Part shown: positions 42,777 to 50,108 of the stretch, one piece after another
Layout: each line of letters begins with the position of its first letter
Numbering within the stretch: the first letter of the stretch is position 1
Source of the DNA: Arcticibacterium luteifluviistationis
Lineage (GTDB): Bacteria > Bacteroidota > Bacteroidia > Cytophagales > Spirosomataceae
Assembly (NCBI RefSeq): GCF_003258705.1
Contig: NZ_CP029480.1
Span: 2,666,001-2,730,000, forward strand
Length of the DNA: 64,000 bases
Direction: 5' to 3'
Notes under the pieces: model-generated
The model's input: only the letters and a program-made list of their open reading frames with translations
Database searches by the model: none
Told to the model about the DNA's origin: nothing
Made by a program: the position numbers and the translations under genes

Positions 42777-42791
42777 CTGACATTCTGTCAG
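42777..42791. promoter_or_regulatory. Perfect palindrome in the miaB promoter
   Basis: CTGACA-TTC-TGTCAG, 6-bp perfect arms, placed between the expected -33 and the -7 element of miaB (8 nt upstream of the latter). The position is that of an operator. The TGACA/TGTCA half-sites recur upstream of groES. Confidence 0.5.
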
Positions 42792-42798
42792 CTGTTTG

Positions 42799-42806
42799 TA
42801 TCTTTG
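42799..42806 (+). promoter_or_regulatory. -7 element of the miaB promoter
   Basis: TATCTTTG, a perfect TAnnTTTG, 27 nt upstream of the miaB start. The -33 position falls at CTGAC, within the palindrome, and is a weak match. Confidence 0.6.
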
Positions 42807-42832: not shown

Positions 42833-44272
42833 ATGGAAGATTTAAAAGGTAAAATGAAGGAGCTCTCTGCTGAAGAAAAGGCTGATTTAGATCAGGCTAG
42901 AATTACTGCGGATGAAGAAACTGTAGGGACTAAAAAGCTCTTTATAGAAAGTTATGGCTGTGCCATGAACTTTGCAGACAGCGAAGTAGTAACCTCTATC
43001 TTAAGAGATGAAGGATACTCTACCACGTCAAAAGAATACGAAGCATCTTTAATTTTATTAAACACATGCTCCATTAGAGATAATGCAGAGCAAAAAGTAA
43101 GAAAAAGACTTGCTCTTATAAATGCGAGAAATAAAGGCCGCAAGGGAGTAAAAGTGGGTGTTTTGGGCTGTATGGCTGAAAGGTTAAAAACACAATTACT
43201 TGAAGAAGAAAAAATAGTGGATATGGTGGTAGGTCCTGATGCCTATCGTGATTTGCCTAATTTAATTAAAGAGGTAGAGGGTGGTCAAAAAGCCGTCAAT
43301 GTCTTCTTATCTAGAGAAGAAACCTATGCCGACATCACTCCTGTTAGACTTGGCTCCAATGGCGTTACTGCCTTTGTATCCATTATGCGTGGCTGTGATA
43401 ATATGTGCAGCTTCTGTGTAGTACCATATACTAGAGGACGAGAAAGAAGCCGAAGTGCCAGCACTATTGTGGCAGAAGCCCAGGACCTTTTTGACAAAGG
43501 ATACCGTGAAGTAACCCTATTAGGTCAAAATGTAGATTCTTATAAATGGAAAAATGAGGCCGGTGAAATAGAAACGAACTTTGCCCAGTTATTGGCATTG
43601 GTGGCAGATATTAACCCATTATTAAGAGTACGATTCTCTACCTCGCATCCAAAAGACATTACAGATGAGGTTTTACATACTATAAAGAAGTATGAAAACG
43701 TGTGTAACTATATCCATTTGCCAGCTCAAAGTGGTAGCAACAGGATATTAGAGTTAATGAACAGAACTTATACCAGGGAGTGGTACATTAATAGAATTGA
43801 TAAAATTCGTGAAATTCTAGGCGAAGATTGCGGTATTTCTCATGATATGATTGCTGGCTTTTGTACAGAAACGGAAGAAGACCATCAAGAAACATTGAGC
43901 CTAATGGATTATGTCAAATATGACTATGGCTACATGTATTATTATTCTGAAAGGCCTGGTACACCGGCGGCCAAAAAATTTGAAGACGACGTTACCCTTG
44001 AAATTAAGAAAAAGAGACTTGACGATATTATTCAAAAACAACGCGGACACGCTCTAGAGAGGAATAACCTTTCCATAGGCACTATTAAAAAAGTTTTAAT
44101 AGAAGGTGTCAGTAAGCGTTCTGATGACTTTTTGCAAGGCCGAACAGATGACAACAAAATGGTTATTATACCAAAAGACAAGCACAAAAAAGGTGATTAT
44201 GTACAGGTTAAAATAACAGAGTGCACTTCTGCCACATTAAAAGGCATAGCACTCGCTGAAGAACTAGCTTAA
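42833..44272 (+). CDS. miaB: tRNA-2-methylthio-N6-dimethylallyladenosine synthase
   Basis: 479 residues. The N-terminal methylthiotransferase domain carries the auxiliary-cluster cysteines Cys43, Cys79 and Cys113; the radical-SAM cluster is C188-DNM-C192-SF-C195; and a C-terminal TRAM domain (about 405-475) binds t[18 protein letters not shown] and [26 protein letters not shown] are MiaB-type. It adds the methylthio group to i6A37 of tRNAs. It is the first gene of the run miaB - sigma54 activator - lptE - orphan gene, with 2 nt to the next start. Confidence 0.96.
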
Positions 44273-44274
44273 AT

Positions 44275-45576
44275 ATGACTAACAGTACAGAAATACAAGC
44301 TGTTAAAAACAGATTTGGAATTATAGGGAATGCCGCTCCACTTAACTATGCCCTGAATATTGCGATTCAGGTGGCCCCTACTGACTTAACGGTTTTGATT
44401 AGTGGAGAAAGTGGAAGTGGTAAAGAGTCTTTTTCCAAAATTATTCATGGCCTAAGCCCAAGAAAACATGGGCCTTTTATAGCTATAAACTGTGGTGCCA
44501 TTCCGGAAGGCACCATTGACTCAGAACTTTTTGGTCATACCAAAGGAGCCTTCACAGGAGCTTTAGATGATAGGAAAGGTTACTTTGAAACTACAGATTC
44601 AGGCACCATATTTCTTGATGAAATAGGAGAAATGCCACTGGGTACGCAGTCTAGGCTTTTAAGAGTTTTAGAAAATGGCGAGTTTATTCAAGTAGGTTCT
44701 TCCAAAGTCAAAAAGACAAATGTACGTGTGGTGGCCGCTACTAATGTCAATTTAATAGAAGCAGTAGATAGAGGTAAATTTAGAGAAGACCTTTATTACA
44801 GGCTTAATACAGTTCCCATTTCGGTACCTCCTTTGCGTGACAGAGGTTTTGACATGGAATTACTTTTCATAAAGTTTACTTCTGACTTTGCCGAAAAAAA
44901 TAGAAGCGAGCCTGTAGAATTAACAGAAGCCGCTAGAAAGGTGCTCACCTCTTTTCGGTTTCCAGGTAATATCCGTCAATTAAAGAACATTGCGGAGCAA
45001 ATAACACTTTTGGAACCTTCTCGCGTTGTAAATGCAGAGGCCTTAGAAAAATACATTCCAAAAAATCAATCTAGTCGTTTACCTGCCTTAATTAGGCAAT
45101 TTGGAGGTCAAGATAGCAGCGACATCTCAGAAAGAGAAATACTATATAAAGTACTTTTTGACATGCGTAAAGACGTTACTGAGCTTAAAAAATTGGTTTT
45201 AGGAATGCTAAAAGGTGGGCACGTGAGCGATGAATTTGTTCACGAAAACTCCCGACTATTCCAAGACCTTCAGAGTGATGGCTCCGGCCTATCTTCTGAA
45301 ATAGATGAAGAAAATTCTTACCCAATTTATACTAAGGAAGACGATAAAACCGTAGTCACTATTGACAACCTTCAAGGGAAGCGTGATAATGTGGAAGACA
45401 TTACTCACGAAATGGAAGAGGAGTCGCTTTCTTTAGAAAAAAATGAGAACGAAATGATTTTAAAGGCATTACGTAAAAATAATTTCAAAAGGAAATACGC
45501 TGCCATGGATCTAGGTATTTCTGAAAGAACACTTTATCGTAAAATAAAACAGTATGATATTGAGGATGAAAAATAG
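44275..45576 (+). CDS. Sigma54-dependent transcriptional activator (enhancer-binding protein)
   Basis: 433 residues. There is almost no N-terminal sensory domain: the AAA+ core starts at about residue 12, with Walker A GESGSGKE (44-51), the sigma54-contact loop GAFTGA (91-96), Walker B GTIFLDEIGEM (110-120) and the arginine-finger region FREDLYYRLNT. A hydrophilic linker (about 265-390) leads to a Fis-type helix-turn-helix (about 397-430, KRKYAAMDLGISERTLYRKIKQY). It should hydrolyse ATP to open sigma54 promoters, with control by the linker or by expression level rather than phosphorylation. Its targets are not known; see the groES upstream region. Confidence 0.93.
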   Translation: MTNSTEIQAVKNRFGIIGNAAPLNYALNIAIQVAPTDLTVLISGESGSGKESFSKIIHGLSPRKHGPFIAINCGAIPEGTIDSELFGHTKGAFTGALDDRKGYFETTDSGTIFLDEIGEMPLGTQSRLLRVLENGEFIQVGSSKVKKTNVRVVAATNVNLIEAVDRGKFREDLYYRLNTVPISVPPLRDRGFDMELLFIKFTSDFAEKNRSEPVELTEAARKVLTSFRFPGNIRQLKNIAEQITLLEPSRVVNAEALEKYIPKNQSSRLPALIRQFGGQDSSDISEREILYKVLFDMRKDVTELKKLVLGMLKGGHVSDEFVHENSRLFQDLQSDGSGLSSEIDEENSYPIYTKEDDKTVVTIDNLQGKRDNVEDITHEMEEESLSLEKNENEMILKALRKNNFKRKYAAMDLGISERTLYRKIKQYDIEDEK

Positions 45577-46099
45577 CAAAGCTAAAGTGTCAAAACTGTC
45601 AATGCCAAATATTAGTTTAATCTTTCTTTTCGCTTTTTGTTTGCAAAGCTGTGGGATCTACTCTTTCACTGGAACCTCTTTATCTCCTGATTTAGAAACT
45701 ATAACTATTCAAAATTTCGGTGTTGCTACGGCGGGTGGGCCTCAAAATCTAGCCATCGATTTCAACGAGGCATTAAAAGAATATTATCAGCGAAACACCA
45801 ATCTCAAATTAGTCCCTAACGATGGAGATTTATTTTTGGCTGGCTCCATTATTACTTATGAAATGACACCTGTAGCCACAAGTGCTAGTGACCAGGCCGC
45901 CTCAAATAGGCTTACAGTTTCGGTGGAAGTTACTTTTCAAAACACGCAAAACGAAGATGATAGTTTTGACAAAGAGTTTTCGTTTTATCAGGATTTTCCG
46001 CAGGAACAGTCACTTACTGATGTAGAGAAACGTCTTGTACCTACTATTATAGACCAACTCGTTCTTAACATATTTAATGACACGGCGGCACAATGGTAA
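45554..46099 (+). CDS. lptE: LptE-family LPS-assembly lipoprotein
   Basis: 181 residues with a lipobox LQSC33 after a hydrophobic stretch (SLIFLFAFC). YSFTGTSLSPDLETITIQNF and the FNEALKEYYQRNTNLKLVPNDGDLFLAGSIITYE strand-helix order match the Bacteroidota LptE family, the plug partner of LptD that places LPS in the outer leaflet. The ATG at 45554 overlaps the end of the activator gene; a second ATG at 45566, overlapping that gene's stop, is an equally good start and gives a shorter n-region. It is likely translated by coupling. Confidence 0.88.
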   Translation: MILRMKNSKAKVSKLSMPNISLIFLFAFCLQSCGIYSFTGTSLSPDLETITIQNFGVATAGGPQNLAIDFNEALKEYYQRNTNLKLVPNDGDLFLAGSIITYEMTPVATSASDQAASNRLTVSVEVTFQNTQNEDDSFDKEFSFYQDFPQEQSLTDVEKRLVPTIIDQLVLNIFNDTAAQW

Positions 46100-46428
46100 A
46101 CAGTAACGAGATAGAATTCCTCATAAATCTGTGCCAAAATCCTGAAAAGGCTACGCCACTAGATTTTGAAAAACTGGCTGAGTTACTAGACCAGCATCCT
46201 GATTTTGATCTCTTAAGGAAGGCATTCATTTTAGTCGGTGAACAATTTGGAGCTAGTGGTCAAAACTTTGAAAAAGAAAAAGCAATCTGGAATACAAAAA
46301 AAGCTTTTTACGAACCAGCTCCTATAAAACCGAAATCAGTGAATAGAGAAAGGCTTGACACCTACTCTATAGAAGAAAAAATCAACTTGTTTATACAGAA
46401 TTATCAAGCTGTATATTCACCATCTTAA
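46093..46428 (+). CDS. Small conserved-looking protein of unknown function
   Basis: 111 residues, acidic and helical at the start (LDFEKLAELLDQHPDFDLLRKAFILVGEQFG) with a Pro/Lys-rich middle (YEPAPIKPKSVNRERL) and a final helix. No signal, membrane segment or known motif. It overlaps lptE by 7 nt, so the two are coupled, and the codon texture is that of its neighbours, which argues for a real gene. The position between lptE and secG hints at an envelope-linked role but nothing in the sequence shows it. Confidence 0.7.
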   Translation: MVNSNEIEFLINLCQNPEKATPLDFEKLAELLDQHPDFDLLRKAFILVGEQFGASGQNFEKEKAIWNTKKAFYEPAPIKPKSVNRERLDTYSIEEKINLFIQNYQAVYSPS

Positions 46429-46531
46429 ACCATTTCACATAAATATGACTCAGGTGTAATGCTTTTGTGAGAAAAAAGTATTTATTTTGCAGCCAGTTTT
46501 AGAAAAACGAGAACTATAATTTTACGAATTC

Positions 46532-46891
46532 ATGATAAATACAATCTTAATATTAATGGTCATTGCAGCTTTATTGCTGATAGTGGTAATTTTAGTTCAA
46601 AACCCAAAAGGTGGTGGATTATCAAGTGAGTTTGGTGGCGGTGCTACTTCTCAGATGTTTGGTGTTCAAAAAACCGGTGATATCTTAGAAAAACTAACTT
46701 GGGGTTTCTTCACTTTTATAATTGTGGGGTCACTTTTTACAGGTTTGTATTTGAAAAATGCTCAAAGCTCAACAGGCAATAGTTTATTGGATGTAGAAAG
46801 TTCGCAAGCTGCTCCAGCTACGGCTCCTTCTTTACCTAGTACTTCTCCTGCTCCAGGCTTAACAGCTCCAATAGAAGTTCCGGCTGAATAG
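46532..46891 (+). CDS. secG: Preprotein translocase subunit SecG
   Basis: 119 residues: two membrane segments (about 5-22 and 53-73) joined by the SecG loop NPKGGGLSSEFGGGATSQMFGVQ, which is diagnostic. The C-terminal tail (about 75-119) is Ser/Ala/Pro-rich and low in complexity, longer than in E. coli but common in this phylum. SecG assists SecYE in protein export. It has a strong terminator 21 nt after its stop. Confidence 0.95.
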   Translation: MINTILILMVIAALLLIVVILVQNPKGGGLSSEFGGGATSQMFGVQKTGDILEKLTWGFFTFIIVGSLFTGLYLKNAQSSTGNSLLDVESSQAAPATAPSLPSTSPAPGLTAPIEVPAE

Positions 46892-46911
46892 TCAAACAAA
46901 AATATTTCATG

Positions 46912-46944
46912 AATAGCCCAAGTTACACTTGGGCTATTTTTTTT
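46912..46944 (+). terminator. Terminator of secG
   Basis: AATAGCCCAAG - TTACA - CTTGGGCTATT, a perfect 11-bp stem, followed by a T-run. Strong, and it separates secG from the groESL control region. Confidence 0.93.
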
Positions 46945-46973
46945 GTCATATCTCTACTCAAAATATGACAAAA
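46941..46973. promoter_or_regulatory. Long palindrome upstream of groES, candidate activator site
   Basis: TTTTGTCATAT, 11-nt spacer, ATATGACAAAA: perfect 11-bp arms. It touches the T-tract of the secG terminator but is a separate structure. Its centre is about 120 nt upstream of the -24-like element at 47076, the usual distance for a sigma54 enhancer site. Confidence 0.5.
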
Positions 46974-47075
46974 TAGCATGACGTAAGCTCATCAAAAGAA
47001 AGGCTGTCAGGTCAATTTTAACAAAGAAAGTACCCAACCTGAAAAAATGGCAGGAATATACACCTTTGTCACCCT

Positions 47076-47091
47076 TTGGCAGATAGTTTGT
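47076..47091 (+). promoter_or_regulatory. Candidate sigma54-type (-24/-12) promoter of groESL
   Basis: TTGGCA, 6 nt, TTGT: the -24 GG and -12 TG are 10 nt apart as sigma54 requires, with T in place of the last C of the -12 TTGC. A TAGTTTG inside the same stretch (47084-47090) is one base short of a housekeeping -7 element, so either sigma factor could use it. No CIRCE/HrcA inverted repeat is present. Confidence 0.4.
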
Positions 47092-47145
47092 GCATCTGTT
47101 GATGTGTTTATAACCGATAAAACAATTTAAAATTTAATAAAAACT

Positions 47146-47421
47146 ATGTCAGTAAACGTGAAACCCTTAGCGGACAGAGTATTAGTAGAAGCTTCGGCTG
47201 CTGAAGAAAAAACAGCATTCGGAATCATCATACCTGATACTGCAAAAGAAAAACCTCAAAAAGGAATTGTAGTGGCTGTAGGCCCAGGAAAAAAAGATGA
47301 ACCAGTTACTGTAAAAGTTGGTGATAATGTACTTTATGGCAAATATTCTGGCACAGAGCTTACTGTAGAAGGAAAGGAGTATTTGATCATGCGTGAATCA
47401 GATATTTTCGCAATAGTATAA
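47146..47421 (+). CDS. groES: Co-chaperonin GroES
   Basis: 91 residues. [11 protein letters not shown], the mobile loop [21 protein letters not shown] and VGPGKKD are standard; the heptamer caps GroEL. The start is 255 nt after secG, behind a separate control region. It is followed by groEL after 106 nt, so the two form the usual operon. Confidence 0.98.
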
Positions 47422-47527
47422 GGTTTAGACACCGTTATAACCTGACCCAAAGGAAAGGAATGAAAAGTCAACCTAGTTTATAGACTAGGAAACTAAATTA
47501 TTCAAAACATAAAATTTTAAAGAAATC

Positions 47528-49162
47528 ATGGCAAAACAAATTCACTTCGATACCGAAGCTAGAGATAGAATGAAAAAGGGAATTGACACCCTTGCCAATG
47601 CTGTCAAAGTAACATTAGGACCAAAAGGAAGAAATGTTATCATAGATAAAAAATTTGGTTCTCCTGCTATCACTAAAGATGGTGTTACAGTAGCCAAAGA
47701 AATTGAGCTTAAAGATGTTATTGAAAACATGGGAGCTCAGTTAGTTAAAGAAGTTGCTTCTAAAACTGCTGACCAAGCTGGTGACGGTACTACTACTGCT
47801 ACTGTATTGGCTCAAGCCATTTACACTATTGGTGCTAAAAACGTAGCAGCTGGTGCAAACCCAATGGATCTTAAAAGAGGTATTGACAAAGCCGTAACTG
47901 CTGTAGTAGCTAGTTTGGCAAAGCAGTCAAATGCTATCTCTACTTCTAAAGAAGTAACTCAAGTAGCTTCTATTTCTGCAAACAACGACATCGAAATCGG
48001 TCAAATGATTTCTGATGCAATGGATAAAGTAGGAAAAGAAGGTGTAATTACTGTAGAGGAAGCTCGTGGAACTGAAACCGAAGTAAAAACGGTAGAAGGA
48101 ATGCAGTTTGACAGAGGTTACCTTTCTCCATACTTTGTAACTAATGCAGAGAAAATGGATGCTGAAATGGAGAACCCATTCATCCTTATTTCTGAGAAGA
48201 AAGTTTCTTCAATGAAAGAACTTCTTCCAGTATTAGAGGCGGTTGCTCAAACTTCTCGTCCTTTAATGATTATTGCAGAAGATGTTGACGGTGAAGCTCT
48301 TGCTACACTTGTAGTTAACAAAATCCGTGGTTCATTGAAAATCTGTGCTGTTAAGGCTCCAGGTTTTGGTGACAGAAGAAAAGCAATGTTAGAAGACATC
48401 GCTGTTTTAACTGGCGGAACTGTAATCTCTGAAGAAAGAGGATTCAAATTAGAAAATGCTGACATCACATTATTGGGTCAAGCAGAAAAAATCATCGTAG
48501 ACAAAGACAATACAACTATTGTTAATGGAAGTGGTGATAAAGAAGCTATCTCTGGAAGAGTTAATCAAATCAAAGCACAGATTGAAACTACTACATCTGA
48601 CTATGATAGAGAGAAACTTCAAGAGCGTTTAGCTAAACTTTCTGGTGGTGTTGCCATTATTTATATTGGTGCTGCTACAGAGGTTGAAATGAAAGAGAAG
48701 AAAGATAGAGTAGACGATGCTCTTCATGCTACCCGTGCGGCAGTAGAAGAAGGTATTGTAGCTGGTGGTGGGGTTGCCCTTATCAGAGCTCAAGCTGCTC
48801 TTGAAGGTCTTGAAGGTGCTAATGCCGATGAAAAAACTGGTATTGCAATCATCAGACAAGCTATCGAATCTCCATTAAGAACTATCGTTGCTAACTGTGG
48901 CGGAGAAGGTTCTGTAGTGGTTATGGAAGTTAAAAACGGTATAGGAGCTTATGGCTACAATGCTCGTGAAGACAAATACGAAGATCTTATTAAGGCGGGT
49001 ATTATTGACCCAACTAAAGTAACTCGTTTGGCTCTTGAAAACGCAGCATCTATTTCTGGTATGTTATTAACTACAGAAGCTGTAGTTTCTGATATTCCTG
49101 AAGAGAAATCAGATATGGGTGGTCATGGTCATCCAGGTGGCGGAATGGGCGGAATGATGTAA
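47528..49162 (+). CDS. groEL: Chaperonin GroEL
   Basis: 544 residues. [36 protein letters not shown], the ATP-site [13 protein letters not shown] with its catalytic Asp, and the Gly/Met-rich tail ending GGGMGGMM are all present; the His/Gly tail (GGHGHPGG) is typical of the phylum. It folds cytoplasmic proteins with GroES. Codon use is strongly biased, as expected for a highly expressed gene. A terminator lies just after the stop. Confidence 0.99.
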
Positions 49163-49186
49163 TTCATTCTCAATTCTGAGACTTAT

Positions 49187-49225
49187 AAAAAAAGGGGTTG
49201 GCCAATATTGGTCAACCTCTTTTTT
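49187..49225 (+). terminator. Terminator of groESL
   Basis: A 12-bp stem (GGGGTTGGCCAA and TTGGTCAACCTC, with two G-T pairs) flanked by A-runs upstream and six T downstream, 31 nt after the groEL stop. Confidence 0.9.
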
Positions 49226-49268
49226 GTTTTCGTGTACTTTAGCACAATATTTGTATATAAACTTGACG

Positions 49269-50108
49269 ATGAAAAAGGAACACTTGTTTACAATGTATAA
49301 ACCGCTTTTATTTTCAATACTTATCTTCTCTGTTGGCTGCAATAAAGTAGTTGATTTGAATATCATCCCTTTTGATGGAGAAGATGATCAGGCCGTAGTA
49401 ATTAGTAACGATTGTAAAATCAAGACCCTTGAGAGTTCCGATGGTTTGACATTTGCGGTAGAATACGATGATGACAAACCACTCACTATTAAGGGTAATT
49501 TACCTAGCTTTGACAAATTCTTATATAATGGAAATCTCCTGACTGGGGCTCAACTTTCTGTTGACCCAAGCTCTCAAATCATTTTCACCTTTGACGGAAA
49601 AGGAAATTTATCTAGAATAAACTTCAAAGGTTCTGACGCTAGAGGTCCATTTGACTACCCTACCACAATGACCTACGATGCCAAAAACAGATTAACAGCA
49701 CTATCGCTTAGTCTTCCTATTTTTAATCAGCCGGCTGATGTAGAATTAGAATATAATGCCGATGATAACATTACTAAAGTAGTTAGGAAAACAGACTTCT
49801 TTGACGAGACACTACTAGTCAATCATACTTTTGATGACAAAAAAAGCCCATTTTTAGACCAAAGATTGGGGCAAATACTCTCTTACTTTATGGTATACAC
49901 CTTAATTCAAGGTGATAACAACTACACTAACTTTCTTAATAAGAATAATGTAACCTCTTCCACCATTACAAATGACAATGGCAAAACAGAATTGTCTACT
50001 GAATACACCTATGACCAAAACGACTACCCTACTCAGGCAGACATTGTAAAGGTTTTTCAAGGTAGAATCAGACAGGCGTCAGGAAGTTATACTTATAAGT
50101 GTAATTAG
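49269..50108 (+). CDS. Lipoprotein with YD-like motifs, unknown function
   Basis: 279 residues from ATG 49269; a lipobox SVGC24 follows a hydrophobic run, so it is an outer-membrane or periplasmic lipoprotein. The body repeats a short pattern like YDAKNRLTALS, YNADDNITKVV and YTYDQNDYPTQAD that recalls YD/RHS repeats and several Bacteroidota DUF lipoproteins. No enzyme motif. The frame can be extended upstream to a TTG at 49224, but that lies in the groEL terminator; ATG 49293 is another possible start. It lies in a monocistronic position between two terminators. Confidence 0.75.
   Translation: MKKEHLFTMYKPLLFSILIFSVGCNKVVDLNIIPFDGEDDQAVVISNDCKIKTLESSDGLTFAVEYDDDKPLTIKGNLPSFDKFLYNGNLLTGAQLSVDPSSQIIFTFDGKGNLSRINFKGSDARGPFDYPTTMTYDAKNRLTALSLSLPIFNQPADVELEYNADDNITKVVRKTDFFDETLLVNHTFDDKKSPFLDQRLGQILSYFMVYTLIQGDNNYTNFLNKNNVTSSTITNDNGKTELSTEYTYDQNDYPTQADIVKVFQGRIRQASGSYTYKCN

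Follow-up and report, generated by a model that had tools for sequence, protein, structure and literature searches.

The groESL operon of Arcticibacterium luteifluviistationis appears to be transcribed from a sigma54 promoter through a sigma54-interacting activator encoded at 44275-45576, with an enhancer, activation of grpE and probable self-repression by the activator, and we put the probability of this whole explanation at about 0.85. The case is built on sequence comparison, namely on the promoter, the enhancer and their phasing, on co-conservation, on one joint absence and on an operator at the activator's own operon.

Enrichment of sigma54 promoters at the GroES, GroEL, GrpE, DnaJ, DnaK and IbpA families of Bacteroidota and Planctomycetota is described in the accessible part of a 2025 PSSM study (PMC12316311), and the sigma54-groES link itself is therefore not new. 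As far as that part goes, the study, which cites a Blattabacterium genome paper for groES of B. thetaiotaomicron, names no activator or enhancer for this regulon and deals with neither phasing nor autoregulation nor symbiont retention, while the accessible part of PMC3162934 covers no Bacteroidota. A literature search with thin coverage of subscription papers brought up nothing on the activator or the enhancer, nor on the enhancer's phasing, an operator before the activator's own operon or a link to symbiont RpoN.

Materials and methods

The window is the whole stretch of DNA analysed, 64,000 nt of A. luteifluviistationis (NZ_CP029480.1, positions 2,666,001-2,730,000, forward strand), and its own genome (5.4 Mb) is designated G000. 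The main locus set comprised 80 Bacteroidota groES loci plus the window, 81 in total. One locus from a record titled Streptomyces (L073) was kept and taken as a mislabelled MAG because its groES matches the query like those of the other loci. Within this named set, the nearest relative of the window by groES identity is L004, a Leadbetterella MAG. The relatives' set consisted of 19 whole genomes from the family and order of the window, its own genome included.

The enhancer pattern CTGAMA-N3-TKTCAG was derived from the main locus set, of which one member (L006) is identical to a locus of the relatives (L173). A strict composite pattern was defined as TGNCA-N3-TGNCA located 5-110 nt before TGGCAYR-N5-[TCG]G[AC]. 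The motif before the miaB-activator operon was counted in 31 loci over 180 nt, leaving out L247 (no miaB match) and L048 (less than 100 nt upstream; motif present) and scoring L246 as a miss, though only ~30 nt could be read there.

The symbiont genomes belong to one family, with 38 genomes of ~0.6 Mb and two of ~0.3 Mb (G424 and G600). The 0.6-Mb genus was taken as Blattabacterium on the basis of plasmid matches: one of these genomes has a plasmid contig with 100% identity to the Blattabacterium clevelandi plasmid, and Blattabacterium is the source of all 11 plasmids matched.

Results

The groESL locus and the neighbouring activator gene

The genes of the locus follow the order miaB-activator-lptE-orf-secG-groES-groEL, the activator ending ~1.5 kb before groES (Table 1), and the sequences named by the initial annotation are all present at the positions it gave. 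The arrangement activator-lptE-secG-groES-groEL is met again in loci under the titles Cytophagaceae, Flavobacteriales, Bacteroidales and Sphingobacterium, and miaB often precedes it. The 111-aa ORF between lptE and secG (46093-46428) has no Pfam or NCBIfam match, and the lptE-secG gap is longer in many other loci (~0.8-1 kb). A second, divergent GroES-like match is located at G000:C1:5371106-5371414 and has counterparts in many relatives. An Rfam search of positions 44000-50000 gave no match.

Table 1. Features of the groESL region, in window coordinates
Feature	Position	Strand	Remark
Full match to the enhancer motif, CTGACATTCTGTCAG, before the miaB-activator operon; probable autoregulatory operator	42777..42791	+	
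TATCTTTG, probable housekeeping -7 element of the miaB-activator operon	42799..42806	+	Presumed consensus
miaB	42833..44272	+	
Activator (bEBP), sensorless, 433 aa, GAFTGA loop and Fis-type HTH	44275..45576	+	
lptE	45554..46099	+	Overlaps activator 3' end
secG	46532..46891	+	
secG terminator hairpin AATAGCCCAAG-TTACA-CTTGGGCTATT, then T run	46912..46944	+	Read from sequence
Palindrome TTTTGTCATAT (46941-46951) / ATATGACAAAA (46963-46973), 11-nt spacer	46941..46973	.	
Candidate enhancer CTGAAAAAATGGCAG	47039..47053	+	23 nt before TGGCA
Sigma54-type -24/-12 promoter of groESL, TTGGCAGATAGTTTGT	47076..47091	+	
groES	47146..47421	+	
groEL	47528..49162	+	Sole Cpn60 match in genome

The initial annotation had described the product of 44275-45576 as a sigma54 activator devoid of a receiver or sensor N-terminus, and domain searches bear this out: the protein is a sigma54-interacting AAA+ protein whose Sigma54_activat match begins at residue 16, which leaves no room for such a domain, and a C-terminal Fis-type HTH (PF02954) occupies residues 387-427. 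The loop that reads GAFTGA in the window activator is mostly GSFTGA in relatives, the HTH core LGISERTL.RK is invariant across 18 activator sequences, and the linker of relatives shows a strongly conserved motif around EREILYKVLFDM. Across the order of genome G039 (taken as Flavobacteriales), an activator match at E<=1e-60 was obtained in 237 of 246 genomes, and in 189 of the 192 of good quality; G436 and G491 gave only weak matches, which may be paralogues.

The activator gene lies upstream of groES in 34 of the 64 loci with at least 4.6 kb of upstream sequence, L004 being among the 30 without it. These 30 loci carry TGGCA-N8-G in 27 cases (28 with the TGGCT of L004) and the enhancer in 18, compared with 48 and 41, respectively, among the other 50 loci; shuffled sequences gave 4.1 enhancers per 81 loci. 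The persistence of TGGCA-N8-G in 27 of 30 activator-distant loci indicates that the element is not a by-product of the neighbourhood.

A conserved sigma54-type promoter before groES

The TTGGCA-N6-TTG noticed at 47076-47090 by the initial annotation is the only exact match in the 64 kb, and it combines GG at -24 with the G of the -12 GC at the fixed spacing. Allowing one mismatch, the window contains 19 matches against 21.7 expected by composition; such matches being no commoner than chance, single-site statistics were discarded as support for the promoter, and conservation had to decide.

The -24 GG, on whose conservation the initial annotation had staked its promoter, is kept before all 19 main groES copies of the relatives' set (as TGGCA-N7-[CT]G within 300 nt), at 78 of the 81 Bacteroidota loci (as TGGCA at -160 to -35 of groES, with sigma54-type spacing) and in 38 of 38 Blattabacterium genomes. 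Three of the 81 loci (L064, L065 and L073) have no TGGCA in this interval, and L058 has TGGCA with the G missing. The density of TGGCA reaches 10.7 per kb at -160 to -35 versus 0.74 per kb at -400 to -200, and its 108 occurrences in the proximal interval compare with 39 of the other-strand word TGCCA. The base located 13 nt after the T is a G in 76% of all 108 unselected occurrences. The best sites of the 78 loci yield the consensus TTGGCAYRNNNNNTG, chosen with a score that favours G at +13, and the base following the -12 G is A, C or T at frequencies of 0.51, 0.23 and 0.23. The window promoter reads TGGCAG where the consensus has TGGCAY, and the last base of its -12 box departs from the consensus, as the initial annotation had remarked, with GT for GC; GT is also found in L004, which keeps the promoter as TTGGCTTAGTAATTGT.

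RpoN is encoded in 388 of the 395 genomes of the phylum sample. In the own genome of the window, rpoN is matched at four places (G000:C1:2215477, 4983597, 1672269 and 4766139): three of the matches are uninterrupted, and the other is a fragment that contains two in-frame TAA codons.

An enhancer motif in helical phase with the promoter

The alignment of the secG-groES interval between the window and L004 reveals two clearly kept blocks, the promoter and, 23 nt ahead, CTGAAAAAATG(G/T)CAG, so that L004 retains both the 47039-47053 site and its distance. This site, CTGAAAAAATGGCAG, differs by one mismatch from CTGAMA-N3-TKTCAG and is probably where the activator binds. With up to two mismatches, the motif precedes 45 of the 78 promoters (mean of 1.8 and maximum of 4 in 40 shuffles), and half-site spacers other than 3 nt give 5 to 21 instead of 45; the remaining 33 promoters have no enhancer within two mismatches in 110 nt.

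Because the pattern had been read off these same loci, evidence that had not been used in finding it was sought in its placement. The distances from the motif to the -24 box cluster at ~11, 21, 32, 42, 53, 63, 74 and 84 nt; a free scan returned a period of 10.55 bp and a Rayleigh test at 10.5 bp gave R=0.78 (p=3e-16, n=58), while control motifs gave R=0.44 (p=0.04, n=17), 0.39 (p=0.03, n=23) and 0.43 (p=0.28, n=7). As related loci are not independent, similar promoters were merged into 46 clusters, with R=0.93 (p=4e-10, n=25). The phasing of bare TGTCA or TGACA half-sites exceeded all 5000 random-shift nulls. With phases fixed beforehand, 18 loci of relatives, among them L173 with its identity to L006, repeated the phasing (p=1.5e-5 and 2.1e-6).

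The strict composite matched 20 times on both strands of the 710,902 bp of the 80 loci, all 20 matches being at groES. A second version of the composite, run on the 19 whole genomes, gave eight matches, six of them before groES, against none for reversed-pattern controls; it had no match in 12 of the 19 genomes, and the window site was its sole match in the own 5.4-Mb genome.

The motif at grpE and at the activator's own operon

Upstream of grpE, TGNCA-N3-TGNCA is found 11-13 nt before a -24-like box in 18 of 30 genomes (raw count). A pattern requiring TGGCAY returned no promoter upstream of grpE, and its relaxed form returned sites of the TGGCAA type. In the own genome, the enhancer before grpE is accompanied by a weak -24 (ATGGTTTAATTATTGA).

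The motif also precedes the operon that encodes the activator, which ties the one to the other. Exact TGNCA-N3-TGNCA was found before miaB in 20 of 31 loci, versus at most one in 60 shuffles, with 19 of 23 non-symbionts positive and 7 of 8 symbiont-family genomes lacking it; the copy at 42777-42791 is the only exact one in the window. TAnnTTTG, which we take to be the Bacteroidota housekeeping -7 consensus, with the -33 element as its partner region, occurs 5-19 nt downstream of the motif in 18 of the 19 non-symbiont cases (raw count), so that the motif lies over the -33 region, where a repressor would sit. This arrangement suggests that the activator represses its own miaB operon. The direction of regulation cannot be read from sequence, and the site might instead activate (positive autoregulation); we consider this unlikely, since no -24/-12 element was seen on reading the DNA that follows the miaB site of the window, and since the downstream TAnnTTTG places the site over the -33 region.

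Co-retention and joint absence in insect symbionts

In each of the 38 Blattabacterium genomes, rpoN and groES are present once, and this activator is matched once. Any other enhancer-binding protein would probably have passed E<=1e-60 there, as paralogues do in larger genomes. The groES region carries the exact 17-mer TTTGGCATGTTTTTGGC in 37 of them and the variant TATGGCATATTTTTAGC in the last, and TGNCA-N3-TGNCA stands upstream of groES in 37 of the 38. Among 37 symbiont loci measured (36 from Blattabacterium plus that of G424), the enhancer was present in 36, at 23, 32-35 or 42-46 nt; since these genomes are closely related, the 36 loci should not be counted as independent. Of the two 0.3-Mb genomes, G424 has retained rpoN and the activator, together with the enhancer and a promoter-like element.

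A search for TGGCANNNNNNTKGC in 12 Blattabacterium genomes matched groES in 11, all but the genome with the variant, and grpE likewise in 11, the 12 grpE sites (two in G552) all having an enhancer at 11-13 nt. The seven other non-rRNA sites had none; among the matches of this search, an enhancer was seen only at groES and grpE. The enhancer-promoter block occurs twice before grpE in G552, at C1:87588 and 88221 (L224 and L232), 633 bp apart. The recurrent symbiont match TGGCACGGAGTTTGC (and TGGCACRGAGTTAGC) was rejected as a candidate site, being 16S rRNA on the other strand in four of the five loci checked; the fifth, L136 of G600, held no 16S rRNA. Another recurrent match, TGGCATANNGAATGC, was likewise rejected, being located within open stretches of ~500 codons and without an enhancer in the three loci checked.

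In G600 (0.3 Mb, 8 contigs, 96% complete), neither rpoN nor the activator was detected, no TGGC occurs within 235 nt of groES, and no element was found before grpE. Elsewhere in this genome, however, 11 and 7 sigma54-like matches were obtained, a higher number than in any of the Blattabacterium genomes searched; six sigma54-like matches are packed in 12 kb (C1:7976-19558), perhaps foreign DNA in the assembly. Further candidates for joint loss proved unusable: G334, from another class of the phylum, keeps the consensus promoter TTGGTACGAGTTTTGC before groES (L086), so that the failure to find rpoN in its assembly may reflect an assembly gap; the groES of G459 lies at the beginning of its contig; no groES was matched in G501 or G571; and in G401 the groES match is only partial or divergent.

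The initial annotation had proposed the activator encoded 1.5 kb upstream as the regulator of groESL, a proposal now supported by the neighbourhood, by a motif that the activator's own operon has in common with groES and grpE, and by the joint absence in one symbiont. The promoter could be of the sigma54 type with TGNCA-N3-TGNCA bound by another regulator, the neighbouring activator acting elsewhere: the link between activator and site is drawn from sequence, and the activator gene is missing upstream in 30 of 64 loci. We regard this as distinctly improbable, given that the motif precedes the activator's own operon in most non-symbionts, that it persists in Blattabacterium, where this activator is the only one found at E<=1e-60, that it is absent from both groES and grpE of G600, where no activator was detected, and that helical phasing against the -24 box is what an enhancer-binding activator requires.

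Other elements and regulators considered at groES

The initial annotation had singled out the perfect palindrome at 46941-46973, whose symmetry and 11-nt spacer we confirm, and whose core pattern has one match in the window and none in 100 shuffles. Its arms contain the half-sites TGTCA (46944-46948) and TGACA (46966-46970), 22 nt apart, and a similar outward pair, TTGTCA-N8-24-TGACAA, is present in 5 of the other 99 upstream regions (101 in total, two of which are the window site). We give little credence to the palindrome as the main enhancer: it is absent from L004, where the 47039-47053 site and its distance are kept, it is located ~106-128 nt from the -24 box, and the conserved site is that at 47039-47053. 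Beside this enhancer, the palindrome is perhaps an auxiliary site. In L018 and L019, a hairpin before groES, probably the secG terminator, has the stems TGTCAG/CTGACA, i.e. the enhancer half-site.

The overlap with a housekeeping -7 element pointed out by the initial annotation stands insofar as TAGTTTG at 47084-47090 resembles the presumed Bacteroidota consensus TAnnTTTG, but this word is one base short of it and the aligned columns of the 78 sites show TGGCA and G at +13 rather than TAnnTTTG, which makes transcription of groESL by the housekeeping sigma factor, with an incidental sigma54 likeness, very improbable. Control by HrcA/CIRCE was rejected: in keeping with the initial annotation, the 81 groES upstream regions contain no exact CIRCE match, the best locus being off at 5 of 18 positions, and HrcA was found in none of the 30 Bacteroidota genomes searched (7 of 14 controls).

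Discussion

In the mechanism that we propose, RNA polymerase-sigma54 would wait in a closed complex at 47076-47091. The activator would bind, presumably as a dimer, the 47039-47053 site and, on the same helical face, related sites of the form TGNCA-N3-TGNCA; hexamer formation is known for its family, and the hexamer would open the promoter with ATP. The same activator probably turns on grpE, and by binding the operator within the housekeeping promoter that serves its own miaB operon it probably represses itself. That it is this activator that binds the sites is our inference, as are the direction of its autoregulation and a dependence on stress; the alternative heat-shock circuit put forward by the initial annotation stays conjectural.

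The scheme bears on a puzzle of reduced genomes. That Walczuchella, Uzinura and Blattabacterium have kept RpoN was called unusual in the accessible part of PMC3971599, where a possible nitrogen role was tentatively suggested. Chaperone control fits the present symbiont data better than a nitrogen role, and the circuit offers a testable answer for all three genera. More tentatively, one may picture a third chaperone-control circuit besides sigma32 and HrcA. Its sigma54 activator, which lacks a sensor and represses itself, would be dedicated to groESL and grpE and gated in trans by the folding machinery (e.g. free GroEL or misfolded clients), and this one circuit would account for the persistence of rpoN in the 0.3-0.6-Mb genomes of Blattabacterium and some related insect symbionts; we regard this wider reading as possible, at well below the confidence given to the circuit itself. 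The analysis names a regulator, a binding site and a small target set for chaperonin control in a phylum where HrcA (0/30) and CIRCE (0/81) were not found. The enhancer additionally lends itself to a simple reporter and could help to approach the signal by which a sensorless sigma54 activator is gated.

Among known systems, HrcA/CIRCE resembles the proposed circuit in having a palindromic element before groESL that controls chaperonin genes, but it represses whereas the Bacteroidota circuit would activate. Sigma32 (RpoH) places groESL and grpE under one regulator, a point in common with the circuit proposed here, which differs by using another sigma family and an ATP-driven activator. A further likeness is to PspF and the psp operon of Escherichia coli, where an activator that likewise lacks an N-terminal sensor and carries GAFTGA acts from an enhancer near a sigma54 promoter. 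The AAA+ domain of PspF can be aligned to that of the window activator (PspF chains, E about 2e-53). PspF represses its own synthesis, and the activator site at its own housekeeping promoter suggests a similar self-repression here. The two systems nevertheless diverge: the window activator scores 243.8 bits against a cut-off of 443.55 bits for the NCBIfam PspF equivalog, no PspA-like partner was identified, and, unlike PspF, the activator has a long linker with the conserved EREILYKVLFDM motif and would target the chaperonin and grpE genes instead of psp.
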